DNA of 64,000 bases from an uncultured Oribacterium sp. (GTDB lineage Bacteria; Bacillota; Clostridia; Lachnospirales; Lachnospiraceae). Position numbers and translations under genes: made by a program. The notes beneath the pieces were generated by a model. The model was not told the origin of the DNA. It ran no database searches and saw nothing but the letters and a program-made list of their open reading frames with translations. Shown piece after piece: positions 3,859 through 63,090 of the stretch (position 1 is the stretch's first letter; each line of letters begins with the position of its first letter). The DNA is taken from NCBI GenBank assembly GCA_946413525.1, contig CAMKKZ010000011.1, positions 1-64,000 on the forward strand. The letters run 5' to 3'.

Positions 3859-3968
3859 AGGAAATGCTGATTAAATTAGCATTTTATCATGATGCACACG
3901 AAAACGCAAAGGAAATTTGCCGCTGCGCGGCGCGTTTTCGGCACCGGAAACGCTTAAATCAGCTTTCC
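3859..3968. repeat. Repeat family F1 (palindromic element), copy 1
   Basis: Ends carry AGGAAATGCTGATT.../...TCAGCTTTCC inverted repeats; the core holds GATGCACACGAAAACGCAAA and a TTTGCCGCTGCGCGGCGCG hairpin. Other copies lie at 13752, 24558, 25294, 33275, 49262 and 55088. Confidence 0.8.
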
Positions 3969-4092
3969 ATTATTTATTCATAGCAGAGAGATAAAGTGCC
4001 AGACAGGAAAGGGCCGGTGAGAAAATCCAGAATACACCGCATCCTGCCCTCTCCTGTCATCAGGCAGCCTGATAAATACTGATAAATACTGA

Positions 4093-14078: not shown

Positions 14079-15719
14079 TTAGGATTTCTGCTCGCGCTCG
14101 GCAACGACACCCATAAGGTAGCCGGGGGTAAAGTACTTGTCCATGAACTGGTAGTAGCCGATCAAAGGGAGCACGGCCTTGTACTGGTCAGCCAAAAGGT
14201 CCTTTTCGATATGCAGGTCATTCGGTCCGGCAATGACCATGACGTTCTGGTCGTCAGCCGAGTACGCCTTCCATTCGATCTGGTCTGTCGACGGGTTGCC
14301 GCAGCGCGCGAAATTAGTCCACATCTGCTGAACGGCCTTGAAGATCTCATCGGGGATGTTCGTGCCGTTGAAGGTGCTGGTCGTCCCGAGGCCGCGAAGA
14401 TTGAATACGAACATGAGCTCCACGGAATGTGCTGCCCCAATATCCGCATCGCTGCTCGGGTAAGACCAGTAATAGCAGAACGTTTTGTTGAACGCGCTCT
14501 GCTCGTCGAGCTGTTTGAGCATGGGAACCCTGAACATAAGCTCGTCTATGAACTCCGTCTCAATAAGTCCCGGCTCCTGGAACCTGCAGACCCGCTGGAA
14601 TTCCTCGTAATACTTCTTGTCCTCTTCCTTCAGGTAGGGAACAGCATCGCCCACGGCTCTCCGGGCGAAGATCTTTTGCTCTTCAATGTTCAGGCTCGGG
14701 CCCTCGCCCATGAACAGCCTAGCCTCGTCGGCCGTGCTTCCTGCCATGATGGTTATGTGCTTTGCGTAGCCCTTCTTGTACAGCTCGATGGGTGCCTCGG
14801 GGAGCACCTCGGTTCCGTAGTAGGGGCAGGACGTGAATTTGCCGACCGCTCCGACATAAGCCTCCTGGAGTTTCTCTTCGCTCAGCGCCATGATGTCGTC
14901 CATAGTCTTGCAGCCAGTGTACTCGAGCAGCGCCTTCGTCTTGCCCTGCGCGGATTCGCAGTCGACCGGGAAAGCCAGGGTGGTCGAACCGCTCTGGGCG
15001 ATGACCTTCTGGAAATACTGATTTGCTTCCTTCATGACCGGCAGAATGGAGACCGATCCGCCGCCGGCGCTTTGCCCGAAGATGGTCACGTTGCCGGGGT
15101 CGCCGCCAAAAGCGGCGATGTTTTCGTGCACCCACCTGAGCGCCATGGCCTGATCGAGCAGGCCGTTGCAGGGTGCAGTCTTGAAGTTTTCGCCGCCGGG
15201 CACCGATGAGAAGTCCATGAAGCCGTACATGTTCAGGCGGTAGTTGATGTTCACAAAGACGATGTCACTGTGCTCCTGAACGAGATTGGCGAAGCTGTAA
15301 GAGATCTGCGATCCTGAGCCGGTGACGTACGCCCCGCCATGGATCCAGAACATCACCGGCTTTTTCTCAGTTTTGTCATCGGTGTTGACCCAGATGTTCA
15401 GGTAGAGGCAATCCTCGGAAGCCAGCTTCTGCACGCAATCCGGATAGCCGTGCGAGCCGAAAGCGCACTTTCCGTAGTATTTGGCCTCGAAGACCCGGTC
15501 GCTTGCGTCAACGTACTCCGGTGCCTTGAAGCGGCGTCCGCCCACGGGCGGCTTCGCATAGGGGATACCCAGCCACGACGCAACCCCGTGCTCCTCGGTT
15601 CCGACGAAGGTGCCGTTCACGCACTTCACGGCATGGGCCTTGTCATAGTCTCCCGTGATTTCGCTGTTCAAATAATCGTATTGCTTGAAAATGGCTAAAT
15701 CCTTGAATTCCCTTTTCAT
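14079..15719 (-). CDS. Type-B carboxylesterase (second, longer paralogue)
   Basis: 546 residues from the ATG at 15719, which has GGAG nine bases upstream; a longer ORF without a ribosome site extends further. Family landmarks: GIPYAKPPVGGRRF, EDCLYLNIW, the oxyanion motif WIHGGAY, the nucleophile elbow GQSAGG, and HSVELMFVF with the late histidine. Compared with the neighbouring esterase it has about 35 more residues at the N-terminus and shares the arrangement WTNFARxGNPSTD near the end. No signal peptide. The terminal codons are partly duplicated 59 bp downstream (14022-14040). Confidence 0.88.
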   Translation of the reverse strand: MKREFKDLAIFKQYDYLNSEITGDYDKAHAVKCVNGTFVGTEEHGVASWLGIPYAKPPVGGRRFKAPEYVDASDRVFEAKYYGKCAFGSHGYPDCVQKLASEDCLYLNIWVNTDDKTEKKPVMFWIHGGAYVTGSGSQISYSFANLVQEHSDIVFVNINYRLNMYGFMDFSSVPGGENFKTAPCNGLLDQAMALRWVHENIAAFGGDPGNVTIFGQSAGGGSVSILPVMKEANQYFQKVIAQSGSTTLAFPVDCESAQGKTKALLEYTGCKTMDDIMALSEEKLQEAYVGAVGKFTSCPYYGTEVLPEAPIELYKKGYAKHITIMAGSTADEARLFMGEGPSLNIEEQKIFARRAVGDAVPYLKEEDKKYYEEFQRVCRFQEPGLIETEFIDELMFRVPMLKQLDEQSAFNKTFCYYWSYPSSDADIGAAHSVELMFVFNLRGLGTTSTFNGTNIPDEIFKAVQQMWTNFARCGNPSTDQIEWKAYSADDQNVMVIAGPNDLHIEKDLLADQYKAVLPLIGYYQFMDKYFTPGYLMGVVAEREQKS

Positions 15720-15999: not shown

Positions 16000-16199
16000 G
16001 TAACTGTTCAGCCGAACCGAACAGCTACGCCTCGGGCGTAGCGCATACGCGCATTCCAGGTACGCCCGAGACGTGCTTTTCGACGCTTCCATATGTACCA
16101 CGCGACAAGTACAAGACACTTGTTACGTCCAAATCAGTTTATCTCAACAGCTTTCCTACGCGCCTCGCGGCAGGCGCGAGGGGCTAACCGCATAATTAC
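16000..16199. mobile_element. M1 MITE with IS66-like ends, copy d, at the end of the surface-protein gene
   Basis: 200 bp, from GTAACTGTTCAG to a degenerate right end CGCATAATTAC. Flanks AGGTCCTC (15992-15999) and AAGTCCTC (16200-16207) match in 7 of 8 bases. The right terminal bases encode the stop codon (TAA, 16198-16196) of the giant surface protein on the minus strand. Confidence 0.78.
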
Positions 16200-19100
16200 A
16201 AGTCCTCCTCTTTCCGCATCGAAAGGTACGCGCCGCCCAGCAGTGCCAGCATAAGGCCAATGGTATAGAACGGGATGCTGCCGGGGCCGCCGGTGGAAGG
16301 CATCCTGTAACCCCTTGCATTGGTGATGGACACAGTATAAACGTTGTTATTAAACGACACGCCGTAATCACTATACGAAAGGCCCGAATCCAGGCTGTAG
16401 CTTACGCCTTTTTCGTTAATGTTTACCGTGACCGTCGTCCCCTTCAGATTGTATCCCTCAGGGGCAGCCGTCTCAATCAGCTCGTAAATTCCGTAATCCA
16501 GTTCGAAAACGGTCTTCTTCCCATCGCTGAGCAGCCCGTCGGAACCGGAAACAAGTCCGGAAAGCATCGGCTTTTCCTCTCGTTTCTTATTCACCACCCT
16601 GTAAAGGGCAAACACCGCCCCGCTCAGATTGACGTCTGAGTCCGTGGCCATGTCCGTCTTCCGGAAGGAAATCTGTTTGAACGGGGCATTGCTGATGTTC
16701 AGAAGGTAAGAAGCCCTGCCTCCGTCCTCGGCCCTGACCAGCTCGACCCCCTCCGGAGGATTTACCAGGGCAATGCCGCCGGTTGAACTGATGTTGAATA
16801 CAATATACTCGCTCATCAGGCGGTAACCGGCAACGGTCGCCTTTTCCCGAAGCTGGTAGGTGCCGGCCGGCAGCGTATTGTCGATTTTCGGAATGATGCC
16901 CTGGGCGTCGGACAGCAGCGCGTCATAGCCCGCCATGGGGTTAAGGGTAAAGGAAGTTACCCCATCCACCGTGACCTGCTTATGGAGCGCGAAGCTTACT
17001 CCCGGCAGGGCCTCCTTTGTGACAGCGTCAATCTTTTTGACCTGGAAATTTGTAGCGCGGTTCCAGACGATAATCGTGGCCATCATCCCGCCTGTTTCCT
17101 GAGTGATGCTGTAGTCCGCGTTTTCCGGCGCGGTATCGGAACCATTGACCAAAAGCTTCCCTGACGCGTCCAGGCGGAGGGTCAGATCCTGATCCAGCCC
17201 GCCGTACCCCTGCGGCGCGCCCGTTTCTTTCAGCGTATAGTCCTTGCCGATGCCCAGGTACGCCTTTGTCACCAGCCCTTCCTTATCGGATGTGAAGCTG
17301 CCAATGACATTATCACCCTCCTGCAACGTGAACACTGCGCCCTCAAGCGGCCTGCCACTCCAGTCGGTCTTTTTCAGCAGGATGCCGAGCCGGTCATTTG
17401 TAACTGTATCCACCCGGACATTTGTATTTGTGCCAAGCTCCCCCCTTTCATAGCCTACGGTATAGCTAAGGCTTGAAGCCTCATTTTCACCTTTCAGCTT
17501 TCCGCCAAGCGTAATCTTCCCGCCGTCCTTCACGGGCCTGATCCCGCTGTAGCCGCTCACGCTTCCGTCCGTTCCGACCACGGGTTCCCCCTGCAGGGCG
17601 ACCTCGTAAATCTCGTACCAGCCGAAGGGTACGTTTACCGGAAGAGGCAGGAAGTACCAGTACAGGGTCTTTTCATCCTTTTTGAGGCGGCGCACTGTGC
17701 CCTCCACGAGCGCAAGCTCATCGCTGTCCTCGCTGCCGACATGGGTGTACACGGCAAAATACGTGTCATCCCTCTCCGACATATAGTCGGCATCGGTCCA
17801 GACCTTGTTCACCCGGAGCCCCCAGCCCTTCAGGTTGCAGACCACCACAAGGGGATCCGCCCCAACCTTTATGACCTTGCTTACCCCCGCGGCAGCATCG
17901 TCAAAGCTCTCGGCTTCCTCTCCGTCCCCATCGTAATAGAGATATTTCTGGAAGGAATAGCCATCCGGAAGCTCCGACGGGCGCTCCACAAGCTTGAAGC
18001 GGGTCCCGGCCAGTACGTTCCGCAGCTCCACGACATAATCAATCGGTATCCTGGAAATGGATCCGTTCATGGACGTGGTGAAGCTGGCCGCCTCCTTTTC
18101 CTGCTCCGTCAATGCGGAATAATCCGTTATACCGCTGCCTATGACCGTGAATTTCTGCGCCTCCGTGTCCCATCCGCAGTAATACCCATCCTTTGTTTTC
18201 ACATGATAGGTATGCATATTCGCGGGAGAGCCATCAAGATCATCTTCATATTCCGTGGCCATGTACAGGCGGAACGAGAAGACGGAATTATCCTCGTCAT
18301 GACTCAGCCTCGTCTCACCGTCCTCCCGGAACAAATTCTTCGTGATCTGCAGATTTCGAAGCGCCTCCGGGCTGACCGCATTGACATAATCTACCTTCGC
18401 CCGGTTTGCCATCGTGTCGTTTTCAATCGCGAAATCCCTGTGGCTTCCCGCGTCATTCCCGCTGCCGGTAAGCTTTTTGCCATTCGCGAACACGGCGTCA
18501 TAGACATCGGTATTGACCCCGCATTCCACGATCCTGTAATCCCTGATTTCCTCCGGGAAGCTGATCTCGGCGGTCTCCTCCGGCTCCAGGAAGAAAACAT
18601 CATTGTAAGTTATGCCGTCTATCTCTATCTCCGTCTGGTATTTTACAGGGTTCGTAGTGCCCAGATGATAGACATAATTGTCAGTCCTGTCGCGGTCATG
18701 GGGAACCGCGTTTGTCAGGTAATGCTCCGCGCCGTCCTCTGTCCTGTAGATGACCTGGTACGGGATTTCGGCCAGCACGCCCTCGGAGGCATCCACGTCG
18801 GAAAGCCTCTTGGTAAGCTGCACCGTGCCCTCCTTCATGGCTGAAAGGTTGAAGCGCATATGGAGGTTCGAGGCGGACGCGCCGCGCTCAGTGTAGAAGA
18901 TCCTCATGGTGTGATTCGTATAATCCTTAAAGATATACCGGACTTCGTCTTCTGCACCCTCCCCGCTTTCAACGACCTTCCTCTCGAAGATTTCATCGAT
19001 CCGCTGCTGAGCCTCCTCCTCAGTCATTCCGCGGCCTATATAATTATTATAGAACAGGTCCTTTAACGTTGTATGTACCTTATTGACCTCCACTTCGCCC

Positions 19101-22100
19101 GTCCGGAAGTTCACTTTTCCGGCCAGCGCGTCATGGATGCCGCCCAGGTCAATGACCAGCTCCCCATCAACATAGAGCCAGAAATCGTCATCGCCTGTGA
19201 ATTCATAGATGATGTCGTGCCCCCAGGCGTCCAGGCCGTCCGGGGTCTGGGTGAAGGAAGCGCTCAGCTCCATTCCCATGTAGTAATCCGGATTGGCGGG
19301 ATCCTGAATGTGGTAAAGCTGCTCGTATTTCCTGGGATCCGTGTCCGGAAGGCTGTTGCCCAGAGCATCGGTCAGGTTCTTCTGGATAGAGAAGACCCCA
19401 TCCTTCAAGTCATTGAAGGGGAAGAACTGACCGTGGGTAGCGAACTTGCCGCTGTAGCTGTCTGTCGTGCCGATTTCCTTATACACAACAAATTCGTGCT
19501 TCTCCTGATCGAGATGGGCGAAATTCTGCACGCTGTCATATTCATAATAACCCGTGGCATTATAGGTGCTCTCGATAAAGAGCCCGTTCACCTCCTCCAC
19601 GCCGTCAAACCACTCTTTAAGGGATTTTTCGGCCTTTGTCACCGGGTATCCGTCCTCCCCCAACGCAGTGGACAGAAGGTTCGGCTCCGTATTGCCATGC
19701 TTATAACCGTTATCACTTCCGATGAAGGTGCTCATGTCCTCCCTCTTGGCAAAGTTGGCCATCCTCATGCTGATACCGTGCTGCCTGTTGTCAATCGTTG
19801 GCACCGTATGCAGCTCAGCATCCACCGGGATGTCCCTGACAATGGCGAAGTAGAAATCATCCGCCTCGGATTTCGGGCAGGCAACAATGGTGCCGTTCCC
19901 GACATCCGCCTTCAGGCCGACATACGCGTAATTTTCCTCATCCCAGGCAAGCACCGTCGAGTAATACTGCCCGTGTTTCCTCCCGTTCAGGTTGATACCG
20001 ATAATGTTGTCAGAAAGGATCTGGCCGTTAGTAACCTGCGGCGCGATATATTTCTGCGAATACTGATTATAAAGCTCGTAATAATTGTTGGGTTCGTCCG
20101 TACCCTCCCAATAATATTCCACAAAGTTCCAAAGCATGGAATTCAATATGGAGCCGACCCACTGGATATCATCACCGCTCTCATAGCAGGGCTTAAGGCT
20201 CCCGTCCTGATCGACCGCGTAATACAGATATTTCTTCAGGCTTTCATTCCATACCCTGGTGTAGACGATGATGCGGGAGCCGTTCGTCACCTCCGGGTCG
20301 GAAACGCTGACCTTCTTTGCGGAATAGGTCAGGAAATAATCCTGCGTCAGCTCCGAGACCTCGGTCAGCTTCAGCCACTCGTTCCCCGACGCGCCGTTCA
20401 CCTTAAAGCCCGTATCCAAATGGCCGGAATAATAAATCATATTGCTGCCGTTTTTCAGGCTGACTTCTCCGAGATGAGTCCCCGTGCCCGGAAGCATCTG
20501 AATCCTGCAGTTCTCGTCCGCCGTGTCCGAAAGGCTCGGGCCGGAGGAATCAATCCTCAAATACTGCGTCATGCCATCGACAACGGCGGTCACATGATAA
20601 ATGTCCTGCTCCAGCCATGTGAACGTCCACTCCGTGATATCACTGCCGTTCGGCACATAGATCCTGTCACTTTCTGACTTTGACATGACCGTCAGCGGGA
20701 TGGCGTCAAGGCTGTTTTCATTCGAAGATCTGGCCATCATGGCACGCCCCGCCGCGGAATAATTCCAGTTCATCAGGCCAAAGCTCTGCCCGTCCATGCC
20801 ATAGGGATCCTCGCTGACCTCCAGGTTCTCCCAAAGGTAAAAATAATTGTTCTTGTCTCCCGCCACGTTCCAGGCGGCAATAATCGTACCGTTGGCATCC
20901 TGCCACATATTCAGGTAGCGGTCGCCATTATGGATGCGCCATCTTCCGTCTTTTTCGAGGATGAGTTCAAAGGCGGTTTTGTCGCTTTCACTGAAGAGTA
21001 TGCTTTCCCCGCCGTCATTCGTCAGATACTGTTTGCTGCCGTCCTCACCATAGCAATAGATATAATACCCTTCAATGGCATTGTCTTCGGCATTCTCAAC
21101 ATCCTCTGAATTGCCGCCTTCGCCGGCAGTTCCTTCACTGCTCGAATTCTCCTCCTCCCCATCGGAAGCTTCCCCTGTGGCAGCTTCAAAATAATAATAG
21201 GCCGCATTGTCGGGAGGCGTTGTCTTTGCCGGCTTGATTTTCAGTATGCCCTTTGTGCCGTCATTCGCAGTGCCCTCCTTTTCCGTCAGGAAAAAACCGG
21301 CCTGCGTTGACATTATCATGCCTTTTGAGGAAAGCTCCGTAAGCCTTTCCATCGTAGTGACATGCATCCAGCCAATCGGAATGCTTTCCGGCCCCTGTAC
21401 AATGGCATAGGCTGAAAAGCTCTCCGTGCTGAAGGAAAAGGTATTCACATCCGTCTCGGCGCTGATGAATTCCGGTTCCTCCTCCTCTCCGCTGAAATGG
21501 ATAACGGAGAAATCATCCCCATTGTCCCCGGCATCCAGGAGCTTGACCGATACATTTGCCCTTGCAGCCGGGTTCACATGCTCCCCGTCCCTGTCAAGGA
21601 TGGATATGTCGAAAATGCGGGCGTAGGAAAATCCCGTTGCTTCCATCGCGGCGGCGGTCCTGTCAAGGTAGTCATCATACGCCTCCCCCATAAGCTCCGT
21701 CACGTCCAGTTGTGCTCCCTGTGGGATCTTCGCTTCCGGTCCGAAATCCACCCTGATCTTGTATTCACGCCCATCGCTGGCCAGCACGTTCTTTTCAAGC
21801 ATTGTCCCGAAAATGCCACATATGGAAAGCCTTTCCGTGGAAAACACGACGGCCTGCGCCTGTCCGGATGTACGCCCGGCAGACTTCTCGTTATCCGAGA
21901 TCTCCTGATCCGCGCTTTCGTCCGTACCTACATCTTCCGTAGCTGTGTCTTCCGATGCGGCTTCTTCCGTAGCTATGTCTTCCGATGCGTCAGCTTCCGG
22001 TACAGCTCCTTCCATACCTGCATCTTCCGCCAATTCTTCAGTTTCTTCAAGAAGTGCCGCTTCCTCCGACGAATCATCGGAAAATACAGTCTCATCCGTT

Positions 22101-24136
22101 TCCTCTTCGAATAATGACGCCTCATCGGATGAATCTGCAAATAACGCTGCTTCCTCCGATGAATCCTCGAATAATGACGCCTCATCCGTTAGCTCTTCGG
22201 ACAATACAGCTTCCTCCGATGAATCCCCGGACTGCTCAGCCTTTTCAATTGTTTCTTCGTCCGAGTGAATTTCGTCAGCAAACTCAACGTCCGAATCCGA
22301 TGCATCAACCAACTCAACGTCCGAATCTGACGCATTATCAAACTCATCGTCTGAATCCGCTTCATCAGCAAATTCATCCCCCCAATCCGCTTCTGCCCGG
22401 GAAGCGGAAAGCGATTCCAGAGACACTGTTTCCAACGAAGTGGTTTCCAGCACTCCTCCGCCCTTTTGAACCTCCCTCAGCTCAAAATCCACTTGTCCCT
22501 GGCCTTCCTCGTCCGAAAGATCCGTAACCTCCAGTTCCTCCGTATCTCCGTCCGCCATCATTCCGTCATAGGAGATCCAGACCTCCACCGGGGCGGCCGG
22601 AAGAATTTCCTCCCCATCGCTGAGAATCTTGAGGTCAAAGAAAGCAGCCGAGGAAATCTTCTTCTCCCCATCGCTCTGGGCCGCCACCTCTTCTTCTTTC
22701 ATGGAAAGGAAGTCGGCATACTCATCCCGGTCTTCATCTAATTTTTCAACCATGAGCTCCGCGTCCGCCGGTATCTCCGCTTCCTTCCTGTACCATACAT
22801 TTACGGTATAATCGCTTCCTTCCGCTGTCAGCACGCCGGCCAGGCTCCCTGTATCATTCTCGCCCTCCCCGGCATATATAGAATAATTTCCTGTATCAAG
22901 AAACACGTCGTCATCCTGCTCCGCGGCCTGGTTTCCTTCGATACTGCCATTCTCCACATCAAGCGTATTCCGCCAATAGAGGCAGACCCCGCCGCCGCTT
23001 CCGGCTGCCGCAAGGTTCCCCCGCCCGGCAGCAAGCTCCGCCGCTTCCGCGTCGTCCACATAGCTTCCGGAAATGTCTTCTTCCGACGCTCCCGGATCAT
23101 ACGCTTCGGCATCCACTGCGCCGATGATTCCCCCCTCCATCAGGAGGCCAGAATACAGGCCGGTCATATGGATGCCGCCGCCGTTCCCTTTTTTCGCGGT
23201 ATTACCGCCGATCCGGGCGCCATCCCTGACGCGAGCAAGCGAAGACTGGCTGCGGAAATAAAGCCCGCCGCCGTTCTTTCCGGCCATGTTGCCGCTGACC
23301 GCCAGGCTGCCCTCAAGGCAGACATCCGAGATCCCGTCAAAATAAATCCCGCCCCCGTTCTCGTCTGCCTTATTGGCAAAGACCGAAACATTGTCCAGCG
23401 TATAGGAAAAGACCGGAGCATCCTCGTCCCTTTCGGCCTGCATCACTGAAAATGCGATGCCTCCTCCATTTTCCGCATGATTCCTGCTGATGATATTTTG
23501 AGGCCCCTGAAATTCAAGCGATTCCGCAGCGTAAGAAAACAATCCGCCGCCGTTCCCGGAAGCGGTATTCCCCGTTATGGTCGCGCCGGAAAGAGTGACT
23601 CTGGCTCCTTTTTCGGCCAGGATGCCGCCTCCGTTTCCCCTTACATTAAAATTGCAGATTGTAACCCCGTCCTCTATCCGAAGGCTTCCGTGTCTGCCGA
23701 CTTTGATGCCGCGGATGTTTTTCTTGCCGCTGCCGTCAATTCTTCCTCCGCCCACGCTGTCCTGAATGGTCAGAGACCCAAAAACCGTAATGGCTGCCGG
23801 ATGCACACCCTTTGCGAAAAGCGTGTAACCATTCAGATCGATAATGACCTCCATGCCCTCATGATCCCAGAGCAGATCATCGAGGATTACAAGGTCTTCC
23901 TCGCAGTCCTTGTAAAGGATGATCTGGAGGATGCGGCTCTCCTCATCGAAAAACGAATCATAATTGTCGCTAAGGTACGGAGCGAATTTATGCTCGTCCG
24001 AAACGCCTTTATGATTCCCGGAATCCTCAGAAGCTCCGGAACCCCCTGCTGCTACGTCATCCTCTTTCCCTTCCTCGGATCCTGCCTCCCCGGCATTTCC
24101 TCCTGGGTAATCATGTCCCTCGATTCCACCTTGCAC
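16196..24136 (-). CDS. Giant cell-wall-anchored surface protein (main part; separated from its signal peptide by a TAG)
   Basis: 2646 codons open from GTG 24136, in the same frame as the signal-peptide fragment at 24140-24493; codon 118 of the combined 2765-codon frame is TAG. Regions (numbered from 24136): parallel beta-helix-like repeats with GNGGG motifs, about 95-425; a Glu/Asp/Ser-rich tract, about 580-750; a long unassigned middle; a fibro-slime/PA14-like domain (DDDFWLYVDGELVIDLGG), about 1570-1680; Cna-B/SpaA-type domains from about 2100 to 2600 (KKTDWSGRPLEGAVF, GTYQLREKATVAGY, GIYELIETAAPEGYNLKG); then a sorting signal MPSTGG, hydrophobic stretch and MRKEEDL tail. Likely a sortase-attached adhesin. 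GTG 24136 has no ribosome site, so without readthrough it is probably a pseudogene. The stop codon comes from a MITE end. Confidence 0.85.
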   Translation of the reverse strand: MQGGIEGHDYPGGNAGEAGSEEGKEDDVAAGGSGASEDSGNHKGVSDEHKFAPYLSDNYDSFFDEESRILQIILYKDCEEDLVILDDLLWDHEGMEVIIDLNGYTLFAKGVHPAAITVFGSLTIQDSVGGGRIDGSGKKNIRGIKVGRHGSLRIEDGVTICNFNVRGNGGGILAEKGARVTLSGATITGNTASGNGGGLFSYAAESLEFQGPQNIISRNHAENGGGIAFSVMQAERDEDAPVFSYTLDNVSVFANKADENGGGIYFDGISDVCLEGSLAVSGNMAGKNGGGLYFRSQSSLARVRDGARIGGNTAKKGNGGGIHMTGLYSGLLMEGGIIGAVDAEAYDPGASEEDISGSYVDDAEAAELAAGRGNLAAAGSGGGVCLYWRNTLDVENGSIEGNQAAEQDDDVFLDTGNYSIYAGEGENDTGSLAGVLTAEGSDYTVNVWYRKEAEIPADAELMVEKLDEDRDEYADFLSMKEEEVAAQSDGEKKISSAAFFDLKILSDGEEILPAAPVEVWISYDGMMADGDTEELEVTDLSDEEGQGQVDFELREVQKGGGVLETTSLETVSLESLSASRAEADWGDEFADEADSDDEFDNASDSDVELVDASDSDVEFADEIHSDEETIEKAEQSGDSSEEAVLSEELTDEASLFEDSSEEAALFADSSDEASLFEEETDETVFSDDSSEEAALLEETEELAEDAGMEGAVPEADASEDIATEEAASEDTATEDVGTDESADQEISDNEKSAGRTSGQAQAVVFSTERLSICGIFGTMLEKNVLASDGREYKIRVDFGPEAKIPQGAQLDVTELMGEAYDDYLDRTAAAMEATGFSYARIFDISILDRDGEHVNPAARANVSVKLLDAGDNGDDFSVIHFSGEEEEPEFISAETDVNTFSFSTESFSAYAIVQGPESIPIGWMHVTTMERLTELSSKGMIMSTQAGFFLTEKEGTANDGTKGILKIKPAKTTPPDNAAYYYFEAATGEASDGEEENSSSEGTAGEGGNSEDVENAEDNAIEGYYIYCYGEDGSKQYLTNDGGESILFSESDKTAFELILEKDGRWRIHNGDRYLNMWQDANGTIIAAWNVAGDKNNYFYLWENLEVSEDPYGMDGQSFGLMNWNYSAAGRAMMARSSNENSLDAIPLTVMSKSESDRIYVPNGSDITEWTFTWLEQDIYHVTAVVDGMTQYLRIDSSGPSLSDTADENCRIQMLPGTGTHLGEVSLKNGSNMIYYSGHLDTGFKVNGASGNEWLKLTEVSELTQDYFLTYSAKKVSVSDPEVTNGSRIIVYTRVWNESLKKYLYYAVDQDGSLKPCYESGDDIQWVGSILNSMLWNFVEYYWEGTDEPNNYYELYNQYSQKYIAPQVTNGQILSDNIIGINLNGRKHGQYYSTVLAWDEENYAYVGLKADVGNGTIVACPKSEADDFYFAIVRDIPVDAELHTVPTIDNRQHGISMRMANFAKREDMSTFIGSDNGYKHGNTEPNLLSTALGEDGYPVTKAEKSLKEWFDGVEEVNGLFIESTYNATGYYEYDSVQNFAHLDQEKHEFVVYKEIGTTDSYSGKFATHGQFFPFNDLKDGVFSIQKNLTDALGNSLPDTDPRKYEQLYHIQDPANPDYYMGMELSASFTQTPDGLDAWGHDIIYEFTGDDDFWLYVDGELVIDLGGIHDALAGKVNFRTGEVEVNKVHTTLKDLFYNNYIGRGMTEEEAQQRIDEIFERKVVESGEGAEDEVRYIFKDYTNHTMRIFYTERGASASNLHMRFNLSAMKEGTVQLTKRLSDVDASEGVLAEIPYQVIYRTEDGAEHYLTNAVPHDRDRTDNYVYHLGTTNPVKYQTEIEIDGITYNDVFFLEPEETAEISFPEEIRDYRIVECGVNTDVYDAVFANGKKLTGSGNDAGSHRDFAIENDTMANRAKVDYVNAVSPEALRNLQITKNLFREDGETRLSHDEDNSVFSFRLYMATEYEDDLDGSPANMHTYHVKTKDGYYCGWDTEAQKFTVIGSGITDYSALTEQEKEAASFTTSMNGSISRIPIDYVVELRNVLAGTRFKLVERPSELPDGYSFQKYLYYDGDGEEAESFDDAAAGVSKVIKVGADPLVVVCNLKGWGLRVNKVWTDADYMSERDDTYFAVYTHVGSEDSDELALVEGTVRRLKKDEKTLYWYFLPLPVNVPFGWYEIYEVALQGEPVVGTDGSVSGYSGIRPVKDGGKITLGGKLKGENEASSLSYTVGYERGELGTNTNVRVDTVTNDRLGILLKKTDWSGRPLEGAVFTLQEGDNVIGSFTSDKEGLVTKAYLGIGKDYTLKETGAPQGYGGLDQDLTLRLDASGKLLVNGSDTAPENADYSITQETGGMMATIIVWNRATNFQVKKIDAVTKEALPGVSFALHKQVTVDGVTSFTLNPMAGYDALLSDAQGIIPKIDNTLPAGTYQLREKATVAGYRLMSEYIVFNISSTGGIALVNPPEGVELVRAEDGGRASYLLNISNAPFKQISFRKTDMATDSDVNLSGAVFALYRVVNKKREEKPMLSGLVSGSDGLLSDGKKTVFELDYGIYELIETAAPEGYNLKGTTVTVNINEKGVSYSLDSGLSYSDYGVSFNNNVYTVSITNARGYRMPSTGGPGSIPFYTIGLMLALLGGAYLSMRKEEDL

Positions 24137-24139
24137 TTC

Positions 24140-24493
24140 CTAGTCTGGAGCCGACCCATCATATTCCTCCGGATTTTCCTGTGGCATACCCTCATCATAA
24201 GGCGAGCTGCCCTCCGACTCGTTTCCATCTATGCTTCCCGCCTCTTCCTCCCGGCTGTCTCCCTCAGCCGATATATCCTGGAAGGGCCCAATGTCATTGT
24301 CCTCCGAAGACCCTCCCTCAACCTGGGTCATGCCCACTCCCGGTCCCGCCCCATACATGCCGCCTTCATCCGTAAACAGCTCTTCCTCAGCCAATACGGG
24401 AAACCGCTGCAGCGATAAGCCATTAGCAATAAGGAAAACAACGAGGAACAAAGACACGAAGCTTTTTGCTTTCCTGTTCAATATGTTTTTCAT
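24140..24493 (-). CDS. Signal-peptide fragment of the giant surface protein (5' part before the in-frame TAG)
   Basis: 117 residues. A basic N-terminus (MKNILNRKAKSF), a hydrophobic core (VSLFLVVFLIANGLSL) and a probable cleavage site after PVLA define a secretion signal. The rest is acidic and Gly/Ser-rich, the same composition as the start of the large frame that follows after the TAG at 24142-24140. GGGGAGGAAGAA precedes the ATG. It makes no sense alone: it is the export signal of the sortase substrate encoded downstream in the same frame. A CAG-to-TAG change is the simplest explanation. Confidence 0.85.
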   Translation of the reverse strand: MKNILNRKAKSFVSLFLVVFLIANGLSLQRFPVLAEEELFTDEGGMYGAGPGVGMTQVEGGSSEDNDIGPFQDISAEGDSREEEAGSIDGNESEGSSPYDEGMPQENPEEYDGSAPD

Positions 24494-24557
24494 TTCTTCT
24501 TCCTCCCCCTTACATATTTCTGTTACATCTTAATGGCCACATCAAATGTTGTTATGG

Positions 24558-24666
24558 AAATGCTGATTAAATCAGCGTTTCCTTATGACGCATACGAAAA
24601 TGGAAAGGAAATATGCCGCTGCGCGGCGCATTTTCGGCGCCGGAAACGCTTAAATAAGCGTTTCCT
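24558..24666. repeat. Repeat family F1, copy 3
   Basis: GGAAATGCTGATTAAATCAG to AAATAAGCGTTTCCT with the usual GCCGCTGCGCGGCGC hairpin; about 65 bp upstream of the surface-protein start codon. Confidence 0.8.
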
Positions 24667-24911
24667 TACTATTAATGTGACGACTCCCCCAGGATGACAT
24701 CCCGAAAAATATGATTTTAGGTATATTTTTCAGGATTTTTCTGTGACATTGCTTTTATCGTAAAATGTATTAATAATTAATTAAAATATTAAAATATTTT
24801 AATTTTTCAACTATATTTTACAACTATCATATATCGCAATCCATGATATCATCCATGCCATTGTTTTGAGTCATGGGGTCATATTGAAATTTTGCGATAC
24901 AACCAACTTAC

Positions 24912-25110
24912 TCTTCTGAAGGCTTGCCCTTCATATTTGCGGTCTTGGAGCCCCGCCCCACAGAAGATCATGAAAGATTTTCCTTTCATACTTGCGGTCA
25001 TGGAGCCCAGATCCACAAAGGATCATGAAAGATCCCTTTCATACTTCATTTGAGCCGCTGACGCGACACAAATGGGGCTCAATGCCTGCGACATCAAGTC
25101 AAAGTTTGAA
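24912..25110. repeat. Repeat family F5, copy 2, with internal duplications
   Basis: Three variants of a CTTTCATACTTGCGGTC(A/T)TGGAGCCC unit followed by CATTTGAGCCGCTGACGCGA, ending in GACATCAAGTCAAAG. The end is the reverse complement of the start of the copy at 3688. Confidence 0.6.
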
Positions 25111-25293
25111 AGTTTAAGATGATTTACTGGTGAATACATGTTATGATTTCATTATGATTTTAGACAGAATCAGTCTGGTATAAGGTATGGCTCATTGCTA
25201 CTTCCGGACCGCTTTGTCAAAAATCAATATGGCATCACCGCGGAGGAGACGCGGGAAAAAGCATTTGGCTACGTACGTGAAAAAACATTGATT

Positions 25294-25408
25294 AGAGAAA
25301 CTCTGATATAAGCGTTTCCGGCGCTGAAAATGCGCAGCGCAGCGACAAATTATCCTTCGCATTTTCGTGTGCATCATAAGGAAATGCTGATTTAATCAAC
25401 ATCTCCTT
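25294..25408. repeat. Repeat family F1, copy 4 (reverse orientation)
   Basis: AAGCGTTTCCGGCGCTGAAA ... TTTCGTGTGCATCATAAGG and AAATGCTGATTTAATCAACA, the reverse complement of the other F1 copies. Confidence 0.75.
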
Positions 25409-25449
25409 AAGTAAGCTTTTATGATGTTAGAAAGATCAGGTAAGCTTTT

Positions 25450-26931
25450 ATGATGAATTTGGTAGAAGAAGCCATACTCTACGCCACTGTCATGCACCAG
25501 GGAAAGGTACGAAAACAGAAGAACATTCCTTTCATCCTGCATCCTTTGGAGGTAGCGCAGATCCTTGCCACCATGACAGAGGACAGGGAAACGATTGCGG
25601 CCGGGATCCTGCATGACATTGTGGAAGATACCGATGGGACGCTGGGCGAAATCCGCTCCCGCTTCGGCGAACGGGTCGCCCTTCTTGTGGATTCGGAGTC
25701 GGAAGGAGCATTCCCGGACGAAGATAAGGAAAAAAGCTGGAAAAAGCGCAAGGAGCAATCTCTTCGAAACCTGAAGAACAGCACGGATATCGGCGTAAAG
25801 ATGCTTTGGCTTGCGGACAAGCTCGCCAATATCCGTTCCCTTGCCCAGGAATACAGCGAGAAAGGGGAAAGCGTCTGGTCTGTTTTCCATCAGAAGGATC
25901 CGGCCATGCATTGCTGGTATTACCGCACAGTGGCGGAATATCTGGAGCTTGACCTTAACAGAACGGGAGCCTTTAAGGAACTCGTCAAGCATATCAATTA
26001 TCTCTGGCCCGGCACTATAGATTCTGATAAGACAAGATACAGAAAGTACAAGGAGGTGTCCCTCGATGGCTGCCGTCTGCTCGGCAGCGGAAAGAAGGGG
26101 GATGTCTACCGTTATGACGATGAGCTGATCCTGAAGGTCTATAACCGCAGCAATACCTACCGGGATGTGGAACGCGAGATTGCGCAGAGCCGGAGGGCCT
26201 TTGTCCTGGGAATACCCACCGCAATCTCCTTTGGCATCGTTTCCGTAGGGGATCGATATGGCGCCATGTATGAGTTCGTAAATTCCGAAACAATTACCAC
26301 CTATATTTTGGGAAATCCCTCTGGACTGGATCACTACGCCGGCGTGATGGCAGAGCTCGCCCGGACGATTCATGCTACGGAGGCGGAGGAAAATGACTGC
26401 TTTCCTGAAGCTGGGGACAGGTTCCGGAAATATGCCGTTGAAGGGATTGGACATTTTGACAACGATCTTTCGGAACAATGCATGCATCTCATCAATGAAA
26501 TGCCTCCGACAAGACATCTGATCCACGGAGACTTTCACACGAGCAATGTTTTTCTGCATAATTCAGAGGCTCTGCTCATTGACATGGACCGTCTCGCGAC
26601 CGGGGATCCGATCTTTGAACTGGGAAATATGTATCTGTATTACGTAGCGATGAAAAGTGAAAACCCGGAGGATATGGATCCCTATCTGGGTATTCCCAAC
26701 AAAGTATGCCTGCGGTTTTATGTTCTTTTCATGAAACATTATCTTGATACCGAAGACGGCGCGCGCATCCGGGAAGTGACAGACCGGGCCAGGCTGCTCA
26801 CAAACCTTCGGCTCATCTATCGTTTTTGGAAGGCTGACGAGCCGACGGAGAAGGAGCGCCTCAAGGCGGAGATGTTGATTGAGGAAACGAGAGAACTGCT
26901 GGAACGGATAGATCATCTGAACATTATCTGA
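25450..26931 (+). CDS. RelA/SpoT-type HD hydrolase fused to an aminoglycoside phosphotransferase-like kinase
   Basis: 493 residues in two parts. Residues 1-185 form an HD domain close to small alarmone hydrolases: His31 in FILHPLEVA, His55-Asp56 in LHDIVEDT and Asp123 in WLADKLANIRS correspond to the Mn2+ ligands of the Rel/SpoT hydrolase site. Residues about 195-490 form an APH/choline-kinase fold: LGSGKKGDVYRYDDELILKV (nucleotide loop), HGDFHTSNVFLH (about 358-369, catalytic loop) and LLIDMDRLATGDP (about 375-387, metal-binding Asp). The gene is isolated and the only plus-strand gene for 50 kb. The start region TAAGCTTTTATGATG is duplicated just upstream. The substrates of both halves are unknown. 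Confidence 0.82.
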   Translation: MMNLVEEAILYATVMHQGKVRKQKNIPFILHPLEVAQILATMTEDRETIAAGILHDIVEDTDGTLGEIRSRFGERVALLVDSESEGAFPDEDKEKSWKKRKEQSLRNLKNSTDIGVKMLWLADKLANIRSLAQEYSEKGESVWSVFHQKDPAMHCWYYRTVAEYLELDLNRTGAFKELVKHINYLWPGTIDSDKTRYRKYKEVSLDGCRLLGSGKKGDVYRYDDELILKVYNRSNTYRDVEREIAQSRRAFVLGIPTAISFGIVSVGDRYGAMYEFVNSETITTYILGNPSGLDHYAGVMAELARTIHATEAEENDCFPEAGDRFRKYAVEGIGHFDNDLSEQCMHLINEMPPTRHLIHGDFHTSNVFLHNSEALLIDMDRLATGDPIFELGNMYLYYVAMKSENPEDMDPYLGIPNKVCLRFYVLFMKHYLDTEDGARIREVTDRARLLTNLRLIYRFWKADEPTEKERLKAEMLIEETRELLERIDHLNII

Positions 26932-27046
26932 CTGGATCATATCAGCTTAGTTCATATATCAGAGCGGGTTTTAGCCACTCTGAATTCTGTCATAGAATCC
27001 GGTTTATTCATATTGTCAATATGCGAAAGATGACTCTGAGAGCCGT

Positions 27047-37946: not shown

Positions 37947-39548
37947 TCAGCTTGTCTGGGCATTTGCGAATTCCGAAAGCTCCAGCCCCGGATTCCTGTC
38001 CAGGACCATCCCCACGGACCATTCATGGGCAAAAAGCAGCAAGGGCCTGTCCTTCAGATCCTTGACCCTCTTCATATCTGAGGTGCCGGCGATCTGATCC
38101 ACCTCCGCGCCAGTCCTGTTCACGATCCAGCGTATATACTCATACGGCAGGATTTCAAGCTTGACATCCACCGAATACTCATTTTTCAGCCGGTAGCTAA
38201 GCACCTCAAACTGGAGCTCACCCACCACCCCCACAATGATCTCTTCCATGCCGCTGTTAAATTCCTGGAATATCTGGATTGCCCCCTCTTCCGCAATCTG
38301 CCTGACGCCCTTCAGGAACTGCTTCCGCTTCATCGTATCGACCTGCCTCACCCTGGCAAAATGTTCGGGCGCAAAAGTGGGTATCCCATCAAAACGGAAC
38401 TTCTTCCCGGACAGGGCGAGCGTATCCCCAATGGAAAAAATGCCCGGGTCAAAAATCCCGATAATGTCGCCCGCATATGCCTTTTCCACCAGCTTCCTCT
38501 CGTCAGCCATCATCTGGGTAGGCTGTGACAGCTTCACTTTCCTGTTCCCCTGTACGTGGTTGACCTCCATGCCGGCGGAAAACTCGCCGGAGCAGATCCT
38601 CATGAAAGCCACCCGATCCCTGTGCCTGGAATCCATGTTGGCCTGAATTTTGAATACAAAAGCGGAAAAATCCTCCCCTTCGGGGTCGATCAGGCCCTGG
38701 TCGGAATGCCTCGGAAGGGGGGGAAGGGACATTTCCAGAAAATGCGCAAGAAAGCTTCTGACCCCGAAATTTGTCAGGGCTGAACCAAAAAATACCGGCG
38801 TCAAATCCCCGTGGTTCACCCTTTCCTGGTCAAATTCATCCGATGCCCCATCCAGAAGCTCCCTGTCCTCCAGAAGCTTCTCATACATTTCAACTCCAAG
38901 GAGGGATGGCAGGGAGGCATCTGAAAGCCCATAGACCTCGCTTTGAACCTCGCGGGCTCCTCCCTGCGCGGCCTTAAAAAGTTCCACCGTGTCCCTTCCC
39001 CTTTCAAAAATCCCCTTGAAGGAACGGCCGCAGCCAATCGGCCAGTTGATGGGACAGGTCCTGATTCCCAGTACCTCCTCAATATCGGACAGCAGCTCGT
39101 AAGGATCCCTGGCCTCCCTGTCAAACTTGTTGATAAAGGTGAAGATGGGTATATGTCGCAAAACGCAGACCTTGAACAGCTTGATCGTCTGAGGCTCCAC
39201 GCCTTTCGCGCCATCAATGACCATGACCGCGCTGTCCGCCGCCATCAAGGTCCGGTATGTGTCCTCTGAAAAATCCTGATGGCCAGGCGTGTCCAAAATG
39301 TTGATGCATTTGCCGTCATAGTGAAACTGGAGCACTGAGGATGTGACGGAAATACCCCTTTCCTTCTCTATCTCCATCCAGTCTGAAACGGCGTGCTTCG
39401 CGGCTTTCCTGCCCTTCACAGTACCGGCAAGCTGAATCTGGCCACCGTAAAGCAGGAACTTTTCCGTCAAAGTCGTCTTGCCGGCATCCGGATGGGATAT
39501 AATGGCAAAGGTCCTGCGCTTCTCTATTTCTTCTTTTAATCCTGACAT
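37947..39548 (-). CDS. prfC: Peptide chain release factor 3
   Basis: 533 residues, the usual RF3 length. G-domain motifs: SHPDAGKTTLTE (G1), GISVTSSV (G2), DTPGHQDFSED (G3), NKFDRE (G4). Domains II and III follow, ending with SDMKRVKDLKDRPLLLFAHE, typical of RF3 and not of EF-G. RF3 is the GTPase that removes RF1/RF2 from the ribosome after termination. Start ATG has GGGAGGG upstream. It stands between the dipeptidase and ftsZ, in the same orientation but behind a terminator. Confidence 0.95.
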   Translation of the reverse strand: MSGLKEEIEKRRTFAIISHPDAGKTTLTEKFLLYGGQIQLAGTVKGRKAAKHAVSDWMEIEKERGISVTSSVLQFHYDGKCINILDTPGHQDFSEDTYRTLMAADSAVMVIDGAKGVEPQTIKLFKVCVLRHIPIFTFINKFDREARDPYELLSDIEEVLGIRTCPINWPIGCGRSFKGIFERGRDTVELFKAAQGGAREVQSEVYGLSDASLPSLLGVEMYEKLLEDRELLDGASDEFDQERVNHGDLTPVFFGSALTNFGVRSFLAHFLEMSLPPLPRHSDQGLIDPEGEDFSAFVFKIQANMDSRHRDRVAFMRICSGEFSAGMEVNHVQGNRKVKLSQPTQMMADERKLVEKAYAGDIIGIFDPGIFSIGDTLALSGKKFRFDGIPTFAPEHFARVRQVDTMKRKQFLKGVRQIAEEGAIQIFQEFNSGMEEIIVGVVGELQFEVLSYRLKNEYSVDVKLEILPYEYIRWIVNRTGAEVDQIAGTSDMKRVKDLKDRPLLLFAHEWSVGMVLDRNPGLELSEFANAQTS

Positions 39549-39574
39549 ATCCCTCCCAAATCCCCCCTACTCCC

Positions 39575-49261: not shown

Positions 49262-49374
49262 AGGAAATGCTGATTGAACCGGCGTTTCCTTATGATGCAC
49301 ACGAAAACGCAAAGGTAATTTGCCGCTACGCGGCGCGTTTTCGGCGCAGGAAACGCTTGAACCAGCGTTTCCTT
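49262..49374. repeat. Repeat family F1, copy 6, in the dcw cluster
   Basis: AGGAAATGCTGATTGAACCG ... GCCGCTACGCGGCGCG ... TTGAACCAGCGTTTCCT, between the ftsL-like gene and rsmH. Confidence 0.8.
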
Positions 49375-49439
49375 ATGATATGTCAAACCGGGGATATCCT
49401 CCGCGCAGGCCGTATACCCCTTCGGCCTTTTCCGCGCGT

Positions 49440-53030: not shown

Positions 53031-53037
53031 AAGCGAA

Positions 53038-53377
53038 TGGACCTGAGGGGAGTCGAACCCCTGTCCGAAAATGAATTCCCTCTCCTTCTACTATCATAGT
53101 ACGCTTCAACGATTCCCCATCTGCAAAAGATGCGCACGTCTTTTACAGACCGGTATCCTCTGATACGCCCGCAGCCGGGAGGAACCTGCTACGTCGTTTC
53201 CTGCATAGTCGAGGCCGGGAACCCGGAGTGCAGGTGCCCCGGGGCCGACCGGCGGCCCTTAGGCCGCCATTGCGAAGTTATTATCTTCTGCGTTTATATT
53301 TAGGTTGAAGGTTAACGCCACTGTCTTTCGGATAGCTTCTAAAGCTGCATCATCCCCGTCGAAACCGGTACAAGCCC
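53038..53377 (-). ncRNA. ssrA: Transfer-messenger RNA (ssrA)
   Basis: 340 nt. The 5' GGGCUUG pairs with 3' CAGGUCC as the acceptor stem; GGTTTCGACGGGG follows the 5' end and GGGTTCGACTCCCCT forms the T arm near the 3' end. The tag reading frame is AAC GCA GAA GAT AAT AAC TTC GCA ATG GCG GCC TAA, giving a peptide ending AEDNNFAMAA, a clostridial-type degradation tag. The CCA tail is not encoded. It rescues stalled ribosomes with SmpB and marks products for proteolysis. Confidence 0.96.
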
Positions 53378-62585: not shown

Positions 62586-63090
62586 GCAACACCAGGGTCA
62601 TGCCGATAAGCCAGGCATTTCTTTATGATGCATATGAAAGCGACTCGTTCCTCGCTTTCTAAAAACAGAGGTCCAGAACGCCGTACTGCACTCCTGACTC
62701 CTAGCTTTCAGCCAGGTGGGTAACCTCACGGATATATCTATAGTCCTTAACCATCCGGAAGGCATTATATCAATATCACAGATATTGGAATCCCGTATGT
62801 CATGTTTGTAGGTTCAATTTGTACAGCCTCGAACGCCCCAGATCACTCTTTATCGGAATTATAACAGAGCCTTTCCTCTTTCGCAAGATGTGAAGGAAAA
62901 AAATTTGCTTACATATCTGAACAGGCTCATCATAGATGTCAGCATAGATATTAGCATAGATATTAGCATAGATATTGTCATAGATATTATCATAGATATT
63001 TAAGAAAGAATTGACCTCAAGGAATTGACGAAAGAATGGCATAATTGCTAAACTAAGGGGCAGAAAAAACCAATGTTTACTGCCGTTTGA
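62586..63090. other. Intergenic region between divergent genes
   Basis: Apart from a 12-bp tandem repeat at 62935-63003 I see no gene or RNA. Promoters for both flanking genes should lie here but none is convincing. Confidence 0.5.
62935..63003. repeat. 12-bp AT-rich tandem repeat
   Basis: About five and a half units of (A/G)(G/T)CATAGATATT. The period of four codons gives open frames on the minus strand with repeated Asn-Ile-Tyr, but no gene features. Confidence 0.8.

Follow-up and report, generated by a model that had tools for sequence, protein, structure and literature searches.

This analysis concerns a very long minus-strand gene for a putative surface protein, carried by a window of 64,000 nucleotides from an uncultured Oribacterium sp. 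(assembly GCA_946413525.1, contig CAMKKZ010000011.1, positions 1 to 64,000), in which one in-frame TAG separates the signal peptide from a body ending in a sortase signal. The explanation that we favour, with a probability of roughly 0.7, is that a giant cell-wall adhesin gene has been inactivated by this single nonsense codon, lying in a variable acidic linker.

The interrupted frame and its homologues

On the minus strand, one frame opens at the ATG at position 24493, preceded by a purine-rich ribosome-binding site read in the sequence (AGGGGGAGGA, 24501-24510), and runs for 117 codons (24493-24143) up to the TAG at 24142-24140. Beyond this stop the same frame continues for 2,647 codons (24139-16196), ending with the TAA at 16198-16196, so that the frame, counted through the TAG, amounts to 2,765 codons (117 + 1 + 2,647). 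The initial annotation had placed the stop within 24134-24148 and given the figures of 2,647 and 2,765 codons, all of which proved correct on the sequence and its translation. Specifically, the 117-codon frame, found in single copy in a search of its own genome, encodes a signal peptide of about 35 residues (24493-24389; end ...FPVLA in the translation, cleavage site placed by eye) followed by an acidic linker, while the body itself lacks a signal peptide.

The coding character of the two parts was assessed through codon usage scores, trained on a genome sample of about 0.9 Mb and compared across the seven other-frame readings. The score of the signal-peptide open reading frame (ORF) is 0.20 and that of the other readings at most -0.16, and five of the six blocks downstream of the TAG outscore every other frame. 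The remaining block, formed by the first 40 codons past the TAG in the acidic linker, scores 0.19 where the best other frame reaches 0.22, and is by itself non-discriminating. In our judgement, a frame that is in phase with a signal peptide, stays open for 2,647 codons and ends in a sortase signal did not arise by chance.

The earlier reading, a single gene interrupted by a single stop, finds support in other genomes. In other species we recovered 19 homologous loci at 44-57% identity, all from metagenome-assembled genomes by title, 10 of which name a part of the ruminant gut. The 5' end could be assessed in 14 of them, since four are truncated by a contig end and an assembly gap affects one (L037) at that point; in all 14 the signal peptide, recognized by eye, lies in the same ORF as most of the match. 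Comparable support comes from anchored ORFs, 25 of which were checked automatically, one being from the genome under study (C2, 516 codons). Among the remaining 24, an in-frame signal peptide was found in 23 (19 by the filter, four missed by the filter and plain by eye), leaving L037 at its assembly gap; six more ORFs, open at the 5' end, were not counted. All 23 resolved anchored ORFs of other genomes therefore start with an in-frame signal peptide.

Among 60 relatives, with at most five candidates scored per genome, no near-full-length counterpart was detected; 25 of 61 genomes, including its own, contain some match, the best one outside its own genome showing 36% identity over residues 1442-1985. 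The window linker is not conserved, and the relatives offer no position comparable with the residue at the window TAG or at a second TAG, described below, in a gene on C4, whose matches outside its own genome start only from residue 542. Eleven plasmid records match the SpaA part weakly, and one relative was found among viral contigs.

The same data bear on the idea that the two parts are separate genes, with the body translated from its own start. The first start-type codon past the TAG, a GTG at 24136-24134, lies one codon beyond it. This GTG lacks a spaced ribosome-binding site and has no signal peptide behind it, so that we rejected it as the start of an exported protein; a sortase-anchored body would thus lack a signal peptide, and no assessable homologue shows such an arrangement. 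Two separate genes are hence scarcely credible.

Meaning of TAG and stops within coding sequence

A second question is whether TAG is a stop at all in this organism. In a sample of 901,699 bases, which includes small overlaps, TAG ends 61 of 343 long ORFs, and in the window it ends seven of 40, the split gene included. The release factor 1 gene prfA is intact (515 bits). Rfam returned 43 tRNA matches, 42 of which were typed by ARAGORN; none of these 42 has a CTA anticodon, and by eye none is present in the anticodon loop of the 43rd (C16:38971-39071). No PylS was found above the cut-off in the genome, the best score being 20 bits against the required 178. Given the lack of a CTA anticodon, the sub-cut-off PylS score and the intact release factor 1, we rejected UAG recoding, pyrrolysine and a suppressor tRNA as candidates, and we conclude that TAG means stop in this organism.

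The initial annotation had also allowed for a stop that is read through, by a suppressor tRNA, pyrrolysine or a programmed event, with the full protein being made. The succession of signal peptide, TAG and body in two surface genes would fit such a mechanism. By eye, however, the two TAG contexts share no motif, and together with the tRNA, PylS and release factor results and the ordinary use of TAG as a common stop, this makes read-through very improbable.

Some side observations concern RNA genes and a further release factor. The 43rd tRNA match (L106 572-672, minus strand) is an unusual tRNA-like gene whose variable region is long; it scores 38.5 bits to the Rfam tRNA model and is not called by ARAGORN. 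The minus strand of the window also carries a peptide chain release factor 3 gene with an RF3_C domain, in one open frame (37950-39566), as well as the genes for tmRNA (53035-53377; tag AEDNNFAMAA) and 6S RNA (62666-62847).

If the TAG were a sequencing or assembly error, the real gene would be intact. The genome is a draft assembly of 4.02 Mb in 70 contigs, 93.5% complete, a change of one base would be enough and the homologues are intact, all of which are compatible with an error. To set against this, the 901,699 bases were scanned for stops flanked on both sides by 40 codons of coding signal, frameshifts being outside the scan. The sample is non-random: 400 kb were taken from C1, C3 and C5 regardless of surface genes, and the rest consists of the window and about 438 kb mostly picked around surface genes. 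The scan returned only 12 sites, and the sole one in a surface gene is the second TAG case, at C4:103676-103678. Judged from the letters, seven of the other eleven resemble gene–gene junctions with a start nearby, and the remaining four are ambiguous (L133, L137, L140 and the minus-strand site of L142). An error rate that strikes two of 12 surface genes should strike many ordinary genes as well, and we therefore consider an error quite unlikely. A further candidate split gene in the window, at 25396-26940 on the minus strand, with two frames joined across a TGA, was dropped, as it overlaps, in antisense orientation, a plus-strand gene encoding HD and APH domains.

Signal peptides among the surface genes of the genome

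The genome contains 13 genes counted as anchored-type. Nine exceed the TIGR01167 cut-off and C21a falls just below it; C2 (2,772 codons) and C21b qualified through SpaA matches together with a C terminus resembling an anchor, C39 was added as a paralogue with an unseen C terminus, and four further sub-cut-off TIGR01167 matches were excluded. The 5' end is readable in 12 of the 13, C20a running off its contig. The signal peptide is in frame in eight of these 12 (the C2 genes of 516 and 2,772 codons, C9, C20b, C21a, C32, C39 and C48), and cut off from the body in the other four: the window gene (C11, by a TAG), C4 (also by a TAG), C7 and C21b.

The four cases differ in their lesions. On C4, a 61-codon signal-peptide frame meets the TAG and is directly followed, in frame, by a 756-codon body (gene at L114 3493-5946, corresponding to C4:103493-105946) with thioester, pilin D1 and SpaA domains and a sortase signal. 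In the giant paralogue on C7, the signal-peptide and acidic-linker frame (L045, about 14558-15650, minus strand) differs from that of the 4,818-codon body; the frame change falls within about 50 bases (about 14558-14609 of L045) that contain a G8 tract, the flat score leaving the exact point unfixed. Runs of eight or more G or C occur four times in 916,657 bases. The G8 site is thus a candidate contingency site or assembly error, and as regards the latter the discussion of PMC9187656 advises caution with G-tract lengths in database sequences. Finally, C21b (L109 984-12374, minus strand) has an anchored body of 3,797 codons that lacks a signal peptide. It begins abruptly behind unrelated DNA which by eye resembles an ABC transporter permease gene and closes with tandem repeats of about 32 bases; this could be either a 5' truncation or a misassembly.

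Compared with the anchored ORFs of other genomes, 4/12 against 0/23 genes are cut off from their signal peptide (Fisher p = 0.0095), a post hoc comparison of related genes, some on the same contig, with a set that mixes pilins and giants. The three breaks that could be placed fall about 4, 8 and 7% of the way along the coding sequence. In the favoured explanation, the window gene is one instance, by nonsense, of a wider pattern in this genome, where differing lesions sever four of the 12 assessable surface genes from a signal peptide.

These observations also lend some weight to the possibility of a living polymorphism in which the TAG is one allele, part of the population has an intact gene and the surface set is varied by 5'-end lesions (nonsense codons, G-tract slippage, truncation). 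The excess of severed genes, the location of all three placed breaks within the initial 4-8% of the coding sequence and the C7 frame change around a G8 tract go in this direction, as do pilus genes of Bifidobacterium breve that are switched at a G-tract between a signal-peptide ORF and the body (PMC9187656). Against it, there is no repeat array at the TAG to permit frequent switching, and the post hoc comparison deals with few and partly related genes. Altogether we hold the polymorphism to be unlikely. An extension of this idea, according to which surface display is varied through independent lesions (amber codons, a G-tract slip, 5' truncation) and the bodies are kept as a reservoir restorable by mutation or by recombination between paralogues, is doubtful but, if true, would represent surface variation of a mixed-lesion type in a Firmicute that probably lives in the gut.

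Phase switching by slippage at the TAG itself, another suggestion of the initial annotation, is disfavoured. The tandem arrays found in 16000-25000 all lie at 21933-22376, none being located at the TAG; a slippage-prone repeat, as is expected of a contingency locus, is thus lacking at this position, and a G8 tract is seen in the C7 paralogue. An invertible promoter looked promising, as two arms in inverted orientation lie upstream of the gene (24552-24664, in the upstream intergenic region, and 25297-25410; plus-strand coordinates, from sequence comparison). The arms are, however, copies of a dispersed repeat family, with 26 and 22 blast matches in the sample, self and partial matches included. 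Since the TAG has no array and the inverted repeats belong to a dispersed element, no fast switch is visible at the window gene. The element itself is a palindromic repeat of about 115 bases, with further copies at 3860-3972 and 49263-49375 of the window and at many sites across the sampled genome; another dispersed repeat, about 70 bases long, occurs near 25035-25112.

Predicted product, probable loss of display and known systems

Going from the N- to the C-terminal part, the body (all features on the minus strand) matches a right-handed beta-helix profile at 23150-23668 (PF13229, 23.4 bits, just below the 25.9 cut-off), a fibro-slime domain at 19046-19210 (TIGR02148, 49.1 bits, cut-off 45) and three SpaA domains (PF17802) at 17156-17383, 16775-17050 and 16397-16675. 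It ends in a sortase anchor signal at 16208-16300, composed of MPSTGGPG..., a hydrophobic stretch and a charged tail, which reaches 18.4 bits with TIGR01167 (cut-off 15.9) and is not matched by PF00746. The genome has two sortase genes, and the C-terminal part resembles, at low scores of 20-33 bits, solved chains named putative surface protein, FimA-like and fibronectin-binding protein. From these sequence features, the product is probably a wall-anchored adhesin. The gene thus bears the sorting signal of an LPXTG-type surface protein and a signal peptide that the TAG has severed; the gene family qualifies as such, and the allele as read does not.

The beta-helix region is shared with the giant paralogues on C7, C20, C21 and C39. 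Like the window gene, those on C20, C21, C32, C39 and C7 are built of a signal peptide, a long acidic linker and a giant body, with sortase signals at the visible ends (C39 runs off its contig). They differ in their larger open frames (4,567-5,330 codons) and in having the signal peptide in frame on C20, C21a, C32 and C39, C7 being the exception.

If the gene is indeed inactivated, ribosomes would start at 24493 and terminate at the TAG, releasing a 117-residue peptide that may be exported. The body would hardly be translated and, having no signal peptide, could not be exported; the full protein is thus probably not made, and the adhesin would be absent from the wall. Such an allele is likely to be recent, and its loss tolerated or favoured. 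The initial annotation had described the codons downstream as undamaged and had, on that ground, offered a recent change as one of several explanations. The first part stands, as no further stop or frameshift interrupts the 2,647 codons, while the second yields a loose bound only. Specifically, 919 of 23,823 single-base changes in the body, or 122 of 7,941 transitions, would create a stop and none is present; dividing 3 by these fractions and ignoring indels, a freely drifting body would have accumulated fewer than about 80-200 substitutions (1-2.5%) since the TAG arose, a loose limit at the 95% level. Such a limit is compatible with a young null allele as well as with a polymorphism on which selection still acts.

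Several points weigh against inactivation by a nonsense codon. A body without second stop or frameshift is also what upkeep by selection would produce, in a population polymorphic for the TAG. The stop is known from one assembly and could be an error or a minor allele. In addition, the window TAG was itself missed by the scan, the first linker block failing the frame test. Lastly, with an assembly 93.5% complete, a UAG-reading tRNA gene could be absent from it, which is possible but unlikely.

In our judgement, the probable loss of the window gene is of a known kind, and the pattern across several genes is the part worth following: an excess of cuts in one genome hints at selection against, or switching of, surface display. 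The gene would be a clean example of the loss or silencing of a giant adhesin, with the signal peptide severed and the body still readable, and an annotation starting at the GTG past the TAG would display a giant surface protein unable to be exported.

By title, we found no closer precedent for read-through in sortase proteins, for early stops with phase variation or for adhesins of rumen Lachnospiraceae than the two systems that follow. In Streptococcus suis, the ancillary pilin gene sfp2 (SSU_0425/0426) of the srtF cluster bears an ochre codon after codon 49 in several strains, and its protein was not detected (PMC2797073). As in the window gene, one nonsense codon near the 5' end interrupts a sortase-type adhesin gene, and earlier annotation had sfp2 as two coding sequences, one short and one long. 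The differences are an ochre codon in a pilus operon of several strains on the one hand, and an amber codon in a giant beta-helix/fibro-slime protein of one assembly on the other.

In B. breve UCC2003, a variable-length G-tract divides the signal-peptide ORF from the body in bbr_1889a/b and bbr_0113a/b and switches these pilus genes; the two parts of bbr_1889 have 65 and 2,674 residues, and a drop in transcript is described (PMC9187656). The likeness to the window gene lies in a short signal-peptide ORF severed from a long body with a sortase signal; the B. breve tract varies within the population, whereas the window TAG has neither tract nor array. The resemblance is close for the C7 paralogue, whose break lies at or near its G8 tract. 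The window gene matches the sfp2 kind, and its C7 paralogue resembles the B. breve kind.

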